From: a virus
Strand: one strand, 5' to 3'
Virus record (IMG/VR): IMGVR_UViG_3300006802_000753
Location: 1 to 20,741 of that record
Length of the DNA stretch: 20,741 nt
Position numbers and translations under genes: made by a program. This document shows positions 551 to 20,716 of the stretch, piece by piece. Below the pieces are notes generated by a model. It had not been told where the DNA came from and did no database searches. It saw nothing but the letters and a program-made list of their open reading frames with translations. Within the stretch, counting starts at the first letter, position 1. Every line of letters begins with the position of its first letter.

Positions 551-1174
551 TCCCTGCCCCCATTTTGGCCATTTTTTTGGCCAGTGCATCGGCTATCTTT
601 TTTTCATCTTCAGGAGATATATTTGTTTGCTCCTGAGATTGTTTATAGCCGGACTTACGATTTTGAATCGCTTCTATCAGCTCGCTGAGCTCTCTCCTTG
701 TAAGCTTTCCGTATTCGTCTTTTGAGTATCCGTACTCGCTGGCGATGAGGTCGAAGACTTGTGTGTCACTGAGGGTGATCCCGCCGGAACTTTTTTTTTC
801 TCATTTAATTTTAAATCCGGGCTGGACTTCTTTCGAGTCTCAACAAACGCTCGAATAATTCCGGTCAACTCATCGGCTCCGCATATGATATGTTTCAATT
901 TTTCAACAGGATCATCAAATGTAAGTATTTTCTCATCGAGCCCATCCCATTGAGTGATCACCGCATTTTTGACAATTCGTTTTGCATCGTCATCCATAAG
1001 GCGCCAAAAGATTGCGAAAACGATATTTACATTTACGCTCTTTAGGCCTTCAATGAGTTCTTCTTGAGTCCAGTTTTCAAGCATCCATTCATCGTCTTGG
1101 ATAGTAATAAAATTCATGAAAACGTCGCGGTTCATTTTCTTTACGAATACTGACTCTCTAACAAGTTTAGACAT
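537..1174 (-). CDS. Tail assembly chaperone, long form made by -1 frameshift (GT-like)
   Basis: Ribosomes that slip back one base on the nine A's at 799-791 leave the 0 frame after about 128 residues. They read a second open frame of 84 residues, ending at the TAG at 539-537, for a product near 212 aa. The -1 frame encodes a coherent, charged helical segment (ITLSDTQVFDLIASEYGYSK, then LTRRELSELIEAIQNRKSG), whereas the 0-frame tail is low-complexity Ser/Thr. This mirrors lambda gpG/gpGT, where the fused T domain recruits the tube protein and the G part binds the tape measure. The long form overlaps the tape measure start by 14 bases. The frameshift itself is inferred from position and reading-frame quality. 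A homopolymer sequencing error is the alternative explanation. Confidence 0.75.
677..1174 (-). CDS. Tail assembly chaperone, short form (G-like)
   Basis: This is a 165-aa product read in frame 0 from the ATG at 1174, which has AGGAG five bases upstream; the frame is open further upstream but without a better site. Residues 1-128 (starting MSKLVRESVFVKKMNRDVF) are acidic and mostly helical, as in gpG-type chaperones that coat the tape measure during tail assembly. The last 37 residues are almost only Ser, Thr, Pro, Gln and Gly, and look like an unselected frame used as a tail after the slippery A-run. Its place between the major tail protein and the tape measure is diagnostic of the family even though sequence identity between such chaperones is usually low. 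Confidence 0.8.
   Translation of the reverse strand: MSKLVRESVFVKKMNRDVFMNFITIQDDEWMLENWTQEELIEGLKSVNVNIVFAIFWRLMDDDAKRIVKNAVITQWDGLDEKILTFDDPVEKLKHIICGADELTGIIRAFVETRKKSSPDLKLNEKKKVPAGSPSVTHKSSTSSPASTDTQKTNTESLQGESSAS
791..799 (-). promoter_or_regulatory. Slippery A9 site for -1 frameshifting
   Basis: Read on the minus strand, codons GAG-AAA-AAA-AAA-GTT give an A AAA AAA heptamer on which both tRNAs can re-pair one base back. It sits exactly where the coding-looking frame changes from 0 to -1 within the tail chaperone gene. No clear downstream stimulatory hairpin was worked out. Confidence 0.7.
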
Positions 1175-4192: not shown

Positions 4193-4849
4193 TTAGTTGT
4201 CGCAGCGAAAATTCTGAATAAACAAGAAATCAAAAACGCGTGAGCCGTTTGCGGCTGGATTCGGGATCACAGTGTTGCTAGCCATTTCGGTGGCGTTGAT
4301 TGCCACGGTTTCGCCAGTCAATACTGCACCATCTACCAAACCCTTAATGAAATAGCCTGTGCCATTTAGGCAGCGGTTCAAGCCAAGCTTCTCGCCAATT
4401 CCGAGACTAAAAGATGCTCCGTAAGGAGAGTCTTCGGCGGGGAATTGAACAGATGTAATAGTCTTGAATGCTTTGTTGCCTGTGGTGGCAGTGCTTTGGT
4501 TTGCGATCAAAGCCAGAGTTTCTGTAATCACACGCCCCTTAGCGTCACGACCAGTGACGACAACGTTCCCGGCCGCCACGTCGGCAGTAGTTCCACCTGG
4601 AGTAAGCACGAGGTTTCGCGCCACATCTGGTTGAGCTAAAAACGTAGTGACTGTAGTGCCTGAAGCCCCACCTCCAGCGTTTGCACTCAGAATGTATGCA
4701 GTTGAAGACGCTGCAGGTGATGTGATTGTTTGATGTTGCAAGACTTCTTGGGTTGGGAACTTAGCATCGATAGGCATACGCTTGAACGAGGCTTCCGCTA
4801 CCAGGGCCACAAGTCCAACAACCAATGTGAACAAAATAGTTTTTTTCAT
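4193..4849 (-). CDS. Head-operon protein with a signal peptide, unknown function
   Basis: A 218-aa protein. Residues 1-20 (MKKTILFTLVVGLVALVAEA) are a textbook Sec signal peptide with two Lys, a hydrophobic core and an A-E-A cleavage site before Ser21. The remainder has Gly/Thr/Ala-rich beta repeats (NLVLTPGGTTADVAAGNVVV, then TGRDAKGRVITETL), resembling phage surface or fibre-like beta proteins, and two Cys near the C-terminus. A leader peptide is unusual for a protein encoded directly after the major capsid gene, because virion proteins assemble in the cytoplasm. Either the product is exported, or the N-terminus is a virion-targeted hydrophobic segment. GGGAGATTATACC precedes the ATG. I do not recognise the family. 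Confidence 0.65.
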   Translation of the reverse strand: MKKTILFTLVVGLVALVAEASFKRMPIDAKFPTQEVLQHQTITSPAASSTAYILSANAGGGASGTTVTTFLAQPDVARNLVLTPGGTTADVAAGNVVVTGRDAKGRVITETLALIANQSTATTGNKAFKTITSVQFPAEDSPYGASFSLGIGEKLGLNRCLNGTGYFIKGLVDGAVLTGETVAINATEMASNTVIPNPAANGSRVFDFLFIQNFRCDN

Positions 4850-12132: not shown

Positions 12133-13120
12133 TGCTGGTCTCCTTGAGAGCTATAAGGGCAGCATGGTTGGCGTACAACCTCTCATTAGTTTTTCCCCCA
12201 CCATTTAATTTGGCTATGGCGGCGCGGTTCCCATATAAACGTTCGACTGTTCCAGAATCCTTCTTTGGGGGCGAAAAGGTGGTTCGATGTTGGATTTCCT
12301 TAATCAAAGTAAATCTCTTATCGCTCACATTGTATTCGGAAATAAAGACTGGGTTTTGTTGAGCGTTGGCCCATTCAAAAAATGCATTGTGATCAAACTC
12401 TGAGCCGTAATCGACGGTCCCTTTATAAGGAATATCACAATAAATTACGGAGTTTGATTCAATTGGTACGACTCTGTAATCTAGATTGGTAAATTTAATC
12501 TTTTGTTCGAGCCGTTGGAGCCGTTGGAGCCGTTGGAGCCGTTCGAGCTGTTCGAGCTGTTCGAGCCGTTGGAAGTCCATACGGACATTTTGTTTTCTAA
12601 TAATCGCTTTTAAAAGAAAGCGTTTACCTAATATTGAAAGCCCTTTGGGCCACTTATCAATACCAAATGTTTCAACCATAAATTCGTCAAATTCATTGAA
12701 AATGACTGCTTGGTGCATGCTTCTTTTCTGGCTCTCTAAATGCTCGCCGAAGATGTAATATTTGCCATTATTCCCAAAAGACCAAAGTATTTTAATATAT
12801 GCATTGGTTTCTTTTTCTTTAAAAAACCTCTCTCTGTCAATCCACTCTGGCTTGAATACTTCATAATTATATTTACCGGCGATTGCATCTTTGATTAGTT
12901 CGCAAATACCTGTCCGTATTTCATTGAAGTGGAATTGTTTATAATTGTTTGATTTTCTTTCAGCCATAAAGTGGGTGACAGAAAAGCCACCACCAAACAA
13001 ATCATAGAAGTGATCTGCTTTGGGAAAGTATTTAGAGATTGTTGGGATCAGCTTATATTTAGATCCTTGATATGTAAGGCCATATTTATTTGGATTCCCA
13101 CGTATTTTTGATTTAGTCAT
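12119..13120 (-). CDS. dam: DNA adenine N6-methyltransferase, D12 class
   Basis: A 333-aa protein from the ATG at 13120, overlapping the ParB-like gene by 8 bases. The N-terminus has YQGSKYKLIP and FYDLFGGG (residues 38-45, the AdoMet-binding motif). The catalytic motif is CDIPY (229-232), a variant of DPPY. An insert of leucine-rich triplets at about 184-206 is encoded by 9-bp repeats. The C-terminus carries a near duplicate, ERLYGNRAA and ERLYANHAA, beyond the usual end. It likely methylates phage DNA to avoid host restriction or to mark packaging or replication sites. Target sequence is not visible. Confidence 0.88.
   Translation of the reverse strand: MTKSKIRGNPNKYGLTYQGSKYKLIPTISKYFPKADHFYDLFGGGFSVTHFMAERKSNNYKQFHFNEIRTGICELIKDAIAGKYNYEVFKPEWIDRERFFKEKETNAYIKILWSFGNNGKYYIFGEHLESQKRSMHQAVIFNEFDEFMVETFGIDKWPKGLSILGKRFLLKAIIRKQNVRMDFQRLEQLEQLERLQRLQRLQRLEQKIKFTNLDYRVVPIESNSVIYCDIPYKGTVDYGSEFDHNAFFEWANAQQNPVFISEYNVSDKRFTLIKEIQHRTTFSPPKKDSGTVERLYGNRAAIAKLNGGGKTNERLYANHAALIALKETSNGKT
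12506..12568. repeat. Seven tandem 9-bp repeats inside the methylase gene
   Basis: Units are TTSGAGCYG (S is C or G, Y is C or T), seven in a row, with a partial eighth. On the coding strand they give repeating RLQ/RLE/QLE triplets with Leu every third residue. Being a multiple of three, gain or loss of units keeps the frame. Comparable Leu triplet runs are known in other D12 methylases of phages. Confidence 0.95.
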
Positions 13121-13667
13121 CGGACACGGATCCAAAAGAATCTTTAATTACAAGAGCCTGTCCCTCCTCAAACTTTTCATTGCAATGAGGGCATATAATA
13201 AACTTGAATCGCTTAGGTTTATCATCATCGTCTTTTTCCGGCTCATCCTCAAAAGGCTCAAAGTCTAATTTGAAATGTTTTATGCCAAGCAGGTCTAGGT
13301 CGAAATCAGGCCCTAGTTCCGCTAGATCTGTATTGATTCCAGACAGGTCTAGTTCAGCCCATGAAGCAATGGCGTTGTCACTTTGAACGTCGGCGTACTC
13401 TTGAGTTTCGTCCTCATAGTCTTGATAAACGACTGGGACGAGAGAGCCCATTTCGATGGCGGCCATTTTTCGGCCATGTCCGCTTGTAATAAAGCCTGAT
13501 TGTTTTGAGACTTTGATTGGATAACGCCAACCTTGATACTCAATGATTTTAACAAGTCGCTGGATCTGGTCGTTGTTGTGCTTATTGCGGTTTTTTGGGT
13601 GATTCAAAAGTGAATTTGGATCAACCAAATCATCATATTTACAATGAACTTTTACGTCCTGCGCCAA
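13113..13667 (-). CDS. ParB/Srx-fold domain protein linked to the methylase
   Basis: A 184-aa protein if the TTG at 13667 is the start, which is preferred because GGGCGGGGGG lies just upstream; an ATG at 13700 has no such site. The fold is marked by NPRNRN-like HPKNRNKHNNDQIQRLVKII, GWRYPIKVS and SGHGRKMAA, the GHGR being the nucleotide-binding motif of ParB-like N-terminal domains. The C-terminus is very acidic (about 130-160) and ends with CPHC, half of a zinc site. In phages such domains often precede or are fused to adenine methylases, and the present gene overlaps one. The role is likely DNA binding or modification, not partition. Confidence 0.72.
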   Translation of the reverse strand: MAQDVKVHCKYDDLVDPNSLLNHPKNRNKHNNDQIQRLVKIIEYQGWRYPIKVSKQSGFITSGHGRKMAAIEMGSLVPVVYQDYEDETQEYADVQSDNAIASWAELDLSGINTDLAELGPDFDLDLLGIKHFKLDFEPFEDEPEKDDDDKPKRFKFIICPHCNEKFEEGQALVIKDSFGSVSDD

Positions 13668-13745
13668 AGTGCCCCCCGCCCTTATTGAAAAGAATAACAT
13701 ATGAATACTGAAATAAAATTCTAAGTGTGTCCACAAATTAACAAA

Positions 13746-13754
13746 TGTGGATAA
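13746..13754 (-). other. Consensus DnaA box
   Basis: TTATCCACA on the minus strand matches the consensus DnaA box exactly. It lies in the gap between the ParB-like gene and the tRNA. TCCACA 10 bases away (13731-13736) forms an inverted repeat with it. A second exact copy lies at 7469-7477, between the portal and protease genes. A single box may be chance. Confidence 0.35.
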
Positions 13755-13775
13755 GGCTGTGTGTGTTGTATGAAT

Positions 13776-13850
13776 TGGCTGGGATGGGAAGATTCGAACT
13801 TCCGATTTTCGCCTTAACAGGGCGCTGCCTTACCGCTTGGCCACATCCCA
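13776..13850 (-). tRNA. tRNA with GUU (Asn) anticodon on a tRNA-Gln-like body
   Basis: A 75-nt cloverleaf with CCA encoded. The acceptor TGGGATG/CATCCCA pairs over seven bases. The D arm is GCC AAGCGGTAA GGC, the anticodon stem GCGCC/GGCGA (last pair G-A mismatched), the loop CTGTTAA with anticodon GTT, the variable loop AAATC, the T arm GGAAG TTCGAAT CTTCC, and the discriminator G73. The U1-A72 pair, GCCAAGCGGTAAGGC and G73 are typical of bacterial glutamine tRNAs, while the anticodon loop is that of asparagine tRNA. Decoding of AAC/AAU is predicted from the anticodon; charging is uncertain. It reads toward the late genes. Confidence 0.9.
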
Positions 13851-13984
13851 ATATGATTTAAATAATCAATGGTCTAGGTACTTATCATCTATAAAAACAA
13901 AGTATTCATATTAAATGCATCTGTTTTTACAAACCTTTCTGAGAATTGACTTAAATATCAATGATCTCAATTAAATTTGAATTG
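13851..13984. other. AT-rich intergenic stretch between tRNA and structured RNA
   Basis: No gene is seen here. It must hold the promoters for the minus-strand tRNA and the plus-strand RNA, because they diverge. The only promoter-like element I could mark is the plus-strand TTGACT at 13946. An AATTGA/TCAATT inverted repeat surrounds it. Confidence 0.5.
13946..13976 (+). promoter_or_regulatory. Possible promoter for the large structured RNA
   Basis: TTGACT (13946-13951) is a good -35 box. TTAAAT (13971-13976) at 19 bases is a fair -10, and AATTAA at 17 bases is poorer. Initiation near 13983 would start the transcript just before its first hairpin. The host sigma factor preference is unknown. 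Confidence 0.35.
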
Positions 13985-14470
13985 TTCGGAGCGCCGATTG
14001 TTGTCCAATGATTGAACGCTAGTGTAAGGTTTTCGTCTAACGGAGAATGTGAGAGCTGCAAAACTCCTTAAATCAGCTTGATGTAAAGGGCTTAATAAAC
14101 CTGGTGGTTTTCGTTCACTTCCTTTGGGGGCTATTCCCGAAATCTATTTTTAGGGGGCTGGATAGCAAATGGACAAAAGGTGTACGAAAACCGTCCTATA
14201 GTGATTGGAAGTTTGTCTCGGAAGGAATAGCAAGCGGGCGACCGACCCGAGCCTGGGCTTTATAGATTCGCTAGGGCTAAACTCACCGTGATGGTTAAGG
14301 CGCTTAAGGTAAAAAAAAGCGCAATCTTGCTGCCCGAAGACAAACGAGATCACGCCTACAACTGCGACTCAACCGACCAAAGTTTTGTTGCAGCTTCTGA
14401 ACCTAATCAACTTGCTAACCAAAGGCAAGTGGAAGTGGGTGGGGAGTTAGGCCCCCTCTATTCTTAATCT
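13985..14470 (+). ncRNA. Large structured noncoding RNA, GOLLD/ROOL-like candidate
   Basis: About 480 bases without a credible gene fold into nested helices. A closing helix joins 14054-14065 (AGCTGCAAAACT) to 14381-14395 with a 3-base bulge. An arm 14103-14114/14184-14195 has 12 pairs enclosing 14121-14125/14176-14180 and 14130-14136/14160-14166. An arm 14211-14221/14334-14345 has 11 pairs and one bulge, enclosing 14229-14234/14326-14331, CGGG/CCCG 14235-14249 and GCGCTT/AAGCGC 14300-14322. Hairpins also form at 13990-14020, 14030-14046 and 14410-14430. G-U pairs in three helices are stable only in the plus sense, which sets the strand. The setting (tailed phage, beside a tRNA) and size recall GOLLD and ROOL RNAs. 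Identity to either could not be checked. Confidence 0.65.
14441..14466 (+). terminator. Possible terminator ending the structured RNA
   Basis: GGGG (14441-14444) pairs with CCCC (14452-14455) around AGTTAGG, followed by TCTATTCTTAATCTTTT, a loose U-rich tract. The 3' arm could instead pair with AGGGGGC at 14152-14158, so this may be a conditional structure. Confidence 0.4.
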
Positions 14471-14540
14471 TTTATAGAACAATGCATTATTAACTTAACG
14501 AGGCGCTGAAAAGTTTTTCGTGTTTGTTGAGGTTCATCAA

Positions 14541-14590
14541 TAGGCCTGAAAGACAAAAACCCAATGGGGTTACCATCGGGTTTGTGCCTA
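14541..14590 (+). other. Long stem-loop in the leader of the early operon
   Basis: TAGGC (14541-14545) pairs with GCCTA (14586-14590), and AAACCC-A-ATGG (14557-14567) with CCAT-C-GGGTTT (14573-14583), closing a five-base loop GGTTA. The inner stem has 10 of 11 pairs. It sits between the structured RNA and the first early gene and may be part of the same RNA, or a leader or termination element. No coding is seen from 14470 to 14717. Confidence 0.6.
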
Positions 14591-14613
14591 CCTATTAATG
14601 ATTCTGAAAAGGC
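14586..14613 (+). repeat. Repeated stem-loop, copy 1
   Basis: GCCT (14586-14589) pairs with AGGC (14610-14613) around ACCTATT-AATG-ATTCTGAAA. The loop sequence recurs in the second copy at 14681-14714. The stem differs by a compensating change (G-C here, C-G there). The GCC of the left arm can alternatively close the larger stem-loop just upstream. Confidence 0.55.
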
Positions 14614-14679
14614 CCTTTGGGAAGCATGCCTGTTCGAATAAAAAAACATTTCCTTAAATATGCAAAATGCGCAATTGTT

Positions 14680-14714
14680 TTCCCTACCTATTCGTAAATT
14701 CTGAAAAAAGGGAA
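14680..14714 (+). repeat. Repeated stem-loop, copy 2, covering the ribosome binding site
   Basis: TTCCCT (14680-14685) pairs with AGGGAA (14709-14714) around ACCTATT-CGTAA-ATTCTGAAAAA. AGGGA is the ribosome binding site of the gene starting at 14718, so folding would hide it and might control the first early gene. The loop matches copy 1 at 14590-14609. Confidence 0.55.
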
Positions 14715-14717
14715 TGT

Positions 14718-15542
14718 ATGGCCAAACGGTTTACAGATTCGTCTAAGTGGGACCAAGCCTGGTTTAGAACACTAACACCCAAAATGAAATGCGCCTGGAT
14801 TTACATTTGTGACAAATGTGACCACGCTGGCATATGGGACGCCGACTTTCCAGCTATGAGTTTTAATGTTGGAGAGGACATTTCCCGACAGGAAATAGAA
14901 GACGTATTTTCAGATAAAATCCAGCCGGTACCGGGGAGGGCCCAATACATCATAAAGGCCTTTATAGATTTTCAATACGGCCCGCTGAATCCAGACAATA
15001 GAGTGCACAAATCAGTCATCGATCGGATCAATATGGTGCTTGGAAGGACCTTACAAGGACCTAATAAGGACCTAATAAGCCCCTTACAAGCCCCTAATAA
15101 GCCCCTTACAAGGACCTTAAAAGGACCTAATAAGGACCTTCGTGCACGCACAACAAAACAAGAAAGCCCATTTGGCGCGAACAATCTTGCCGCACTGTGG
15201 AATACATATGCCTCCAAAACTACCGCGCTGTCCGGCAAAAATATGCCAACTGTGGATCTAGAAAAGTTTAAACCAGGTCAACCTAGATTTCGCTCTGCGC
15301 AAGAACGTTTGGCTTTCGAGCCAAGCGAGAGCTACTGGACAGATGTGATTGAAAGAATAATGCGATCAGACTTTTGTCGCGGGAAAAACGACCGAGGCTG
15401 GCTTGCCGACTTCGACTTTCTTGTGCGTGTTGAAACCCACGTAAAGGTCATGGAAGGCAAGTATGACTCGCGAGGAACGATTACAACCACAAATACGAAT
15501 TGGGCTCGAGTGTTTGGCGATGAACCGCGAGGTGAGAAATGA
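14718..15542 (+). CDS. Probable phage replication initiator / replisome organiser
   Basis: A 274-aa protein from the ATG at 14718, with AAAAGGGA upstream. The N-terminal 120 residues (MAKRFTDSSKWDQAWFRTLT, then CDKCDHAGIWDADF, FIDFQYGPLNPDNRVHKSVI) match a winged-helix-like domain widely found in phage and prophage replication proteins. A middle linker at residues 109-142 has three 11-residue repeats (TLQGPNKDLIS, PLQAPNKPLTR, TLKGPNKDLRA) encoded by nine 11-bp DNA repeats. The C-terminal part (EPSESYWTDVIERIMRSDFC, KNDRGWLADFDFLVR) resembles the C-terminal domain of DnaD-like/O-like proteins that bind the helicase loader. It overlaps the next gene by four bases (ATGA). It is the first early gene. 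Confidence 0.75.
   Translation: MAKRFTDSSKWDQAWFRTLTPKMKCAWIYICDKCDHAGIWDADFPAMSFNVGEDISRQEIEDVFSDKIQPVPGRAQYIIKAFIDFQYGPLNPDNRVHKSVIDRINMVLGRTLQGPNKDLISPLQAPNKPLTRTLKGPNKDLRARTTKQESPFGANNLAALWNTYASKTTALSGKNMPTVDLEKFKPGQPRFRSAQERLAFEPSESYWTDVIERIMRSDFCRGKNDRGWLADFDFLVRVETHVKVMEGKYDSRGTITTTNTNWARVFGDEPRGEK
15044..15142 (+). repeat. Nine tandem 11-bp repeats, candidate iteron origin
   Basis: Nine contiguous units fit AAG(GA or CC)CCT followed by TAC, AAT, TAA or TCG: units 1-3 and 7-9 are AAGGACCTnnn, units 4-6 AAGCCCCTnnn. The 11-bp period is close to one DNA turn and is not a multiple of three, so protein repeats arise only every 33 bases. GTGCAC palindromes flank the array at 15003-15008 and 15143-15148. 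Lambda and related phages carry iterons inside their initiator gene in the same way. That this is the origin is inference. Confidence 0.9.
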
Positions 15543-17689: not shown

Positions 17690-17977
17690 ATGGACCGCAT
17701 TATTTTTGAGGTCGAAACAAAGGATGGCTTGGGTTACCCAGTTGTCCTTAAGGTTTACAAAATATACGCCAATTGCGAGGAGGTTGACTTTGACGCTTTT
17801 AAATATGTTGGCGACGATTTTCAAGGCATCAACATTACGCACAACCTCAAATTGTCCGAATACTATGCTTATACAAAGCTTATCCTTGAAAAATTTGAGG
17901 AAGAATTTCCGTTTCAATGGTGGGACATGCTTAAGGAACGAAATGAAAATAAAGGCAGGAGACATCACTATGAATAA
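17690..17977 (+). CDS. Unknown small protein
   Basis: A 95-aa protein starting MDRIIFEVETKDGLGYPVVL, with GGAGG four bases before the start. It reads as alternating beta strands, then a helix (YAYTKLILEKFEEEFPFQWW) and a charged end. I recognise no family. It is the first gene after an extended -10 promoter with an overlapping palindrome, and overlaps the lipoprotein gene by eight bases, so the two are probably co-expressed. No signal peptide or Cys pair is present. Confidence 0.6.
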   Translation: MDRIIFEVETKDGLGYPVVLKVYKIYANCEEVDFDAFKYVGDDFQGINITHNLKLSEYYAYTKLILEKFEEEFPFQWWDMLKERNENKGRRHHYE

Positions 17978-18389
17978 AGCGATAGCGTCAATTATATTGT
18001 GCCTGATGACAATGTTCATTATTGGATGCGGCGGTGGCGGCGGGGCCTCTGGACCGTCTGGGGTTGGGATTACGGTTCCAACACCTACGCCAGCCCCAGA
18101 TATAATTTATCAATATGATATATATATGGATGGCCAGGGAGGATGGTTTGCGTCTGTGATATACACGGACTTTACATTGCCAACACAGGTTGAGACACCA
18201 TTTCAAGTTAACGGAGTTTCGGCGCAAGGCGCCGGGATCACAAAATTCGGTCGCAATTTATTTGGACAGATTGTAAACCGAGGCACAACAAATATCACAT
18301 TCAGGATTGTCCGTGATCAGGTCGAAATTCTAAACATGGTATTACAACCAGATGATACACATAATTTTATTTACGACGTAGGGCCTTAA
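17970..18389 (+). CDS. Phage-encoded lipoprotein, unknown role
   Basis: A 139-aa protein from the ATG at 17970 with GGCAGGAG upstream; the frame is open far upstream but the N-terminus there is not coding-like. Residues 1-20 are a lipoprotein signal with the lipobox IIGC, so Cys20 would be lipidated, and a Gly run (CGGGGGASG) follows. With Gly at +2 the outer membrane is expected. The mature part has beta strands and a Pro/Thr spacer (GVGITVPTPTPAPD). Phage lipoproteins often block receptors or superinfection, which is only inference here. The stop overlaps the next start (TAATG). Confidence 0.75.
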   Translation: MNKAIASIILCLMTMFIIGCGGGGGASGPSGVGITVPTPTPAPDIIYQYDIYMDGQGGWFASVIYTDFTLPTQVETPFQVNGVSAQGAGITKFGRNLFGQIVNRGTTNITFRIVRDQVEILNMVLQPDDTHNFIYDVGP

Positions 18390-20459: not shown

Positions 20460-20488
20460 CCAACAACAAAACCTAAGGGGGTTTTATG
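20458..20488 (+). repeat. CAA-rich leader repeat, type B, copy 2
   Basis: AACCAACAACAAAACCTAAG, then GGGGTTTTATG. AAAACC (20468-20473) pairs with GGTTTT (20480-20485), with TAAGGG in the loop exposing the ribosome binding site. It precedes the start at 20486 and shares CCAACAACAAAACCTAAG with the other type B copy. Confidence 0.8.
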
Positions 20489-20716
20489 AAAGCAATTCTA
20501 TTCACACTGGCACTCGTTGCCACAACACCTGCAATGGCGAGCTACTACCAAGCTAGCTGTCAATGCATGGCAGACGGCAAAAACGTAGGCCCTACATTCG
20601 GTATGGACTTTTCATACGATGGCGCATTGGCACAAGCTGAAGCACAATGCACAGATGCAGGCGGTACTGTGGGCATGTGTTCAGTGACTGAGTCTGGCGA
20701 CGGCGGTGGTCAATGA
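20486..20716 (+). CDS. Small secreted Cys-containing protein
   Basis: A 76-aa protein from the ATG at 20486 with AAGGGGG in the preceding hairpin. Residues 1-18 (MKAILFTLALVATTPAMA) are a Sec signal peptide with an A-M-A cleavage site. The mature part (SYYQASCQC, GMDFSYDGALAQAEAQCTDA, VGMCSVTESG) has four Cys, enough for two disulfides in the periplasm. The family resembles small exported proteins of Gram-negative predators and others, a weak impression. It ends with ATGA overlapping the next gene. A host-envelope effect is possible but unproven. Confidence 0.65.
   Translation: MKAILFTLALVATTPAMASYYQASCQCMADGKNVGPTFGMDFSYDGALAQAEAQCTDAGGTVGMCSVTESGDGGGQ

Follow-up and report, generated by a model that had tools for sequence, protein, structure and literature searches.

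The DNA analysed here (the window) is the IMG/VR virus record IMGVR_UViG_3300006802_000753, positions 1 to 20,741, with a length of 20,741 bases. According to PHROG matches, its leftward genes encode a terminase (phrog_979, E 1e-154), a portal protein, a major head protein, a DNA methyltransferase and a ParB-like protein (13113-13736, minus strand), and its rightward genes encode a replication initiator of the lambda O/DnaD-like type (14718-15542, plus strand), a Mu Gam-like protein and RecT. The ParB-like and initiator genes form the left and right borders of a divergent spacer of about 980 bases (13736 to 14718). This spacer contains a tRNA gene and a candidate noncoding RNA of about 490 bases, located at 13985-14470 on the plus strand and designated here the island. 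An initial, sequence-only reading of this DNA had noted a nearby tRNA, which both ARAGORN and Rfam (RF00005, 65.8 bits) confirmed as tRNA-Asn with anticodon GTT and an encoded 3' CCA (13776-13850, minus strand). The GC content of the island reaches 52%, compared with 24-29% in the AT-rich left flank and 38-39% in the right flank.

Some additional features of the window lie within its genes. The initiator gene contains about nine 11-bp repeats (AAGGACCTTAT) at 15044-15140, whose iteron-like character suggests a putative lambda-type origin within this gene. In the DNA methyltransferase gene, a 9/18-bp tandem repeat (12505-12573) encodes a run of LEQLERLQRLQRL-type residues. Three small proteins have signal-peptide-like starts (4193-4849 on the minus strand; 17967-18389 and 20486-20716 on the plus strand); one of them has a lipobox-like motif and one is encoded within the head gene cluster. 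A Pfam scan of the proteins at 4193-4849 and 20486-20716 revealed no family above the cut-off.

Relatives of the phage were retrieved through the ParB-like protein, the terminase (both as a single protein and as a 16-sequence alignment), the initiator and RecT. The nearest ones match the terminase with about 55% identity and RecT with 62% identity over full or nearly full length, and none carries the island. A DNA search of 50,697 phage and 72,556 plasmid records yielded only tRNA matches and chance matches of 24-27 nt. When IMG/VR was scanned for exact occurrences of three 15-16-mers taken from the island, 89 stretches matched, and the alignments made with the island were no longer than 26 bases. 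The island was also absent from more than 250 loci fetched via neighbouring proteins and patterns, and from the whole records behind many of these loci. Single-sequence covariance models of the two robust arms of its predicted fold, searched against the window and 85 loci, matched the window alone. Neither nucleotide nor covariance-model searches detected relatives of the island in any collection or related phage searched. Since these collections contain no close relative of the phage, the missing homologues are a weak argument against an RNA; they probably reflect, for the most part, an unsampled lineage. A cyanobacterial host was considered on the basis of matches of RecT to a Microcystis phage (56%) and of the initiator to a Pseudanabaena phage (35%), and these matches were too few to assign it.

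One relative, L218, has the same layout, with terminase and ParB-like genes leftward and initiator and RecT genes rightward (56% identity to the window for RecT, 32% for the initiator and 29% for the ParB-like protein). Its spacer between the ParB-like and initiator genes is 191 bases long and has neither the tRNA nor the island, and both therefore look like accessory cargo. Judging from this one syntenic relative, they were probably acquired together in the lineage of the window. A second locus, L044, encodes an initiator with 57% identity over 104 residues, and the DNA upstream of it is only AT-rich. Another related viral contig, L013, contains a complete tmRNA gene (595-955, minus strand, tag ANDESYALAA) 313 bases upstream of its terminase match (position 1269), where the gene may be either host flank or phage-borne.

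The sequence-only reading had described the island as a set of nested perfect helices, and the complementary segments it named are present, at most 1 base from the positions given. How they behave in the predicted ensemble differs from helix to helix. The proposed closing helix (14054-14065 with 14381-14395) can form 12 pairs around a 3-base bulge, but has a probability of 0.00 when 13985-14470 or a longer stretch is folded, because its 3' strand is occupied by a hairpin at 14362-14368/14387-14393 (plus strand, predicted probability 0.99); its outer half pairs solely when the RNA is shortened to 14048-14400. A hairpin at 14030-14036/14040-14046, also proposed, proved weak (0.13-0.31). The two main arms fared better, and most of their pairs have probabilities near 1.0 in four different sequence contexts. 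The arm 14103-14114/14184-14195 has its 12 pairs, with probabilities of about 1.0 for 14106-14113 and 0.03 for the two outermost pairs. The arm 14211-14221/14334-14345 has 8 pairs followed by a bulge, the first seven at probability 1.0.

In the predicted plus-strand fold, these arms belong to two independent domains. The first (14105-14193) is a long arm made of 14105-14114/14184-14193 and 14116-14119/14179-14182 with an inner hairpin, and the segment 14100-14200 that includes it has a folding energy z of -2.17. The second (14201-14353) is branched, with pair probabilities of 0.94-0.99; its helices 14201-14206/14348-14353, 14211-14218/14338-14345 and 14228-14234/14326-14332 enclose hairpins at 14235-14249, 14250-14278 and 14300-14322. 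A further plus-strand hairpin is predicted at 14410-14416/14424-14430 (probability 0.97).

The total folding energy of the island is ordinary for its composition. On the plus strand it is -145.1, compared with -140.5 +/- 6.0 in shuffled sequences (z -0.77; 24 of 100 shuffles match or beat it), and on the minus strand -129.2 compared with -123.1 +/- 5.5 (z -1.13). Such values are in line with a quite plausible alternative, namely, that the island is regulatory spacer DNA (promoters, operators or decayed cargo) whose fold is typical of its composition. This view is also favored by its location between divergent operons, by sliding z-scores in 200-nt windows, which are unremarkable relative to the rest of the window (coding regions fold comparably), and by other elements in the same spacer, the duplicated 10-mers at 14587-14610 and 14683-14707. 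However, L218 manages with a spacer of only 191 bp, and the core of the island (14100-14435) is richer in GC than its flanks and has a fold definition above that of all shuffles. We discarded the energy z-score as evidence for or against structure, because the L013 tmRNA, used as a control, reaches just -0.40; the value for the tRNA-Asn in the window is -1.14.

Two other statistics lean towards structure in the modelled fold. Helices of at least 11 bp number 7, compared with 2.3 expected (p 0.015), on the plus strand only. In addition, the plus strand of a core at 14100-14435 has an unusually well-defined predicted fold, with 68 pairs of probability above 0.9, compared with 24.7 in shuffles, and a level reached by 0 of 120 of them; the bounds of this core were picked post hoc from the inspected fold. 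The ensemble diversity of the core is 0.106 (0.241 in shuffles). Its minus strand has a count of near-certain pairs reached by 10% of shuffles, and for the full stretch 13985-14470 the corresponding figure is 7.5%, which is merely suggestive. Among about 410 windows of 336 bases in the record, the core ranks fourth (approximately the top 1%); the three that equal or outscore it in fold definition include coding stretches. The tmRNA control also scores poorly on the near-certain-pair statistic, which is neither necessary for nor proof of a structured RNA.

The island had been described as lacking credible genes. Its frames indeed match nothing in Pfam or PHROG at E up to 10, and tblastn detected nothing significant in phages or the fetched loci. 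There is, nevertheless, a 58-codon open frame at 14291-14467 (plus strand) with no recognised homologue but with gene-like codon usage; its score of 0.19 per codon falls among those of the genes of this phage, and 3.6% of shuffles reach the best coding score of the region. On this basis, the island could be explained by a small protein gene, or two, either intact or decayed, with this frame as the chief candidate. This explanation appears rather unlikely, as the frame spans only the 3' part of the island (about a third to half) and an open run of 78 codons is present in 45% of shuffles.

An argument for a plus-strand RNA, based on G-U pairs available on that strand only, was not supported. The two strands differ by 16 kcal/mol and their shuffles by 17, and the argument therefore reflects base composition. 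A sigma-70 scan of the region yielded promoter matches no commoner than in shuffles, with only two, overlapping, on the plus strand, both ending at 13866, and a terminator-like 3' end at 14437-14475 was no better than chance. The strongest hairpin in the spacer is oriented for leftward transcription: at 14557-14583 on the minus strand, an 11-bp stem is followed by a T-rich tail, and the segment 14540-14600 has a z of -4.89 on the minus strand (0 of 200 shuffles) and -1.64 on the plus strand. A functional transcript might accordingly be read from the minus strand, upstream of and together with tRNA-Asn, and be insulated by this hairpin. Consistent with such a transcript are the minus-strand orientation of the tRNA, the strength of the hairpin on that strand only, and a minus-strand energy z slightly below that of the plus strand. 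The helix excess and the significant fold definition lie on the plus strand, however, and we consider the minus-strand version improbable; it is one version of the RNA interpretation, with which its probability overlaps.

The hairpin at 14557-14583 sits immediately left of the initiator gene, a position like that of the oop terminator beside lambda O, and a short leftward oop-like RNA could end there. To its right, an element of the form CCTACCTATT-N4/5-ATTCTGAAAA is duplicated, its copies being 96-97 bases apart, and the second adjoins the ribosome-binding site of the initiator. Between the copies lies a 23-codon frame (MPVRIKKHFLKYAKCAIVFPTYS, frame +3), possibly a leader peptide.

The sequence-only reading had likened the island to GOLLD and ROOL RNAs. 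GOLLD RNAs are large and branched and occur in phages or prophages, often beside tRNA genes (PMC12286853), and a corresponding setting is found here, with terminase, portal and major head genes and the tRNA-Asn at 13776-13850. The Rfam models of the GOLLD and ROOL families remained unmatched. GOLLD (RF02032), which was also searched singly, was missing from 13860-14720 at E up to 10 and was not detected in the window as a whole either; ROOL (RF03087) likewise went undetected at E up to 10. At both normal and the most permissive filter settings, Rfam yielded only chance matches for the island. ARAGORN found no tmRNA in the window, and no Rfam tmRNA family matched. For calibration, other genomes were examined for GOLLD and ROOL RNAs as positive controls, and none was found. 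As judged by covariance models, the island is outside GOLLD and ROOL. That it is a divergent member of GOLLD, ROOL, tmRNA, RNase P, or group I or II introns, as its size, phage context and adjoining tRNA might suggest, is very improbable in view of the chance-level Rfam matches (E up to 10), the unmatched GOLLD model and the ARAGORN result.

The interpretation that we favor is that the island encodes a large noncoding RNA of the phage, a predicted orphan unplaced in any family, to which we assign a probability of roughly 0.45. It draws on the location beside a tRNA, the GC-rich composition, the lack of protein families in the frames, the plus-strand helix excess, the well-defined predicted core with its two independent domains (14105-14193 and 14201-14353), and the absence of the island from L218, which would be expected of accessory cargo; unclassified lncRNAs of phage K and ICP1 provide precedents. 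Counting against it are the ordinary total energy, the post hoc bounds of the core and the equally high scores of three other windows, promoter and terminator signals at chance level, and the overlapping 58-codon frame. Homologues are absent, and the interpretation therefore stays plausible but unproven. A more specific proposal, that the island represents an undescribed class of large structured phage RNAs, as its first member, unrelated to GOLLD and ROOL and carried as cargo beside a tRNA, is tentative and somewhat doubtful. Together with tRNA-Asn, the island would be accessory cargo in the spacer that separates the leftward packaging/head operon from the rightward replication operon. If it does encode an RNA, this would be transcribed from the plus strand, and the transcript would end short of the minus-strand terminator-like hairpin at 14557-14583. 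The RNA may fold stably and be produced in the course of infection, as is thought for other large tRNA-adjacent phage RNAs. Our working guess is an abundant, non-essential RNA of the lytic phase that would act through its structure.

Few large phage RNAs have been described, and their functions have yet to be established, although some form RNA-only cages (PMC12286853). GOLLD shares the phage and tRNA setting with the island, but many GOLLD RNAs exceed 800 nt and the island is below 500. ROOL RNAs likewise occur in phages near tRNAs; the Rfam model of this family has 574 positions and does not match the island. RNA-seq has revealed unclassified lncRNAs in two phages. Two lncRNAs of phage K resemble GOLLD and ROOL in their location beside tRNAs and in abundance (PMC9241854), and in ICP1 a transcript of about 800 nt lacks ORFs (PMC7567579); in both phages, the comparison with GOLLD and ROOL extends only to location or size. 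The island has in common with both an ORF-less stretch, and with the phage K lncRNAs also the adjoining tRNA. Those RNAs are abundant transcripts, whereas the island is known here from sequence alone. As a single orphan known in this way, it is too little yet to bear a link between large RNAs and phage tRNAs; should the predicted RNA be real, another RNA class beside a tRNA gene would reinforce that link.
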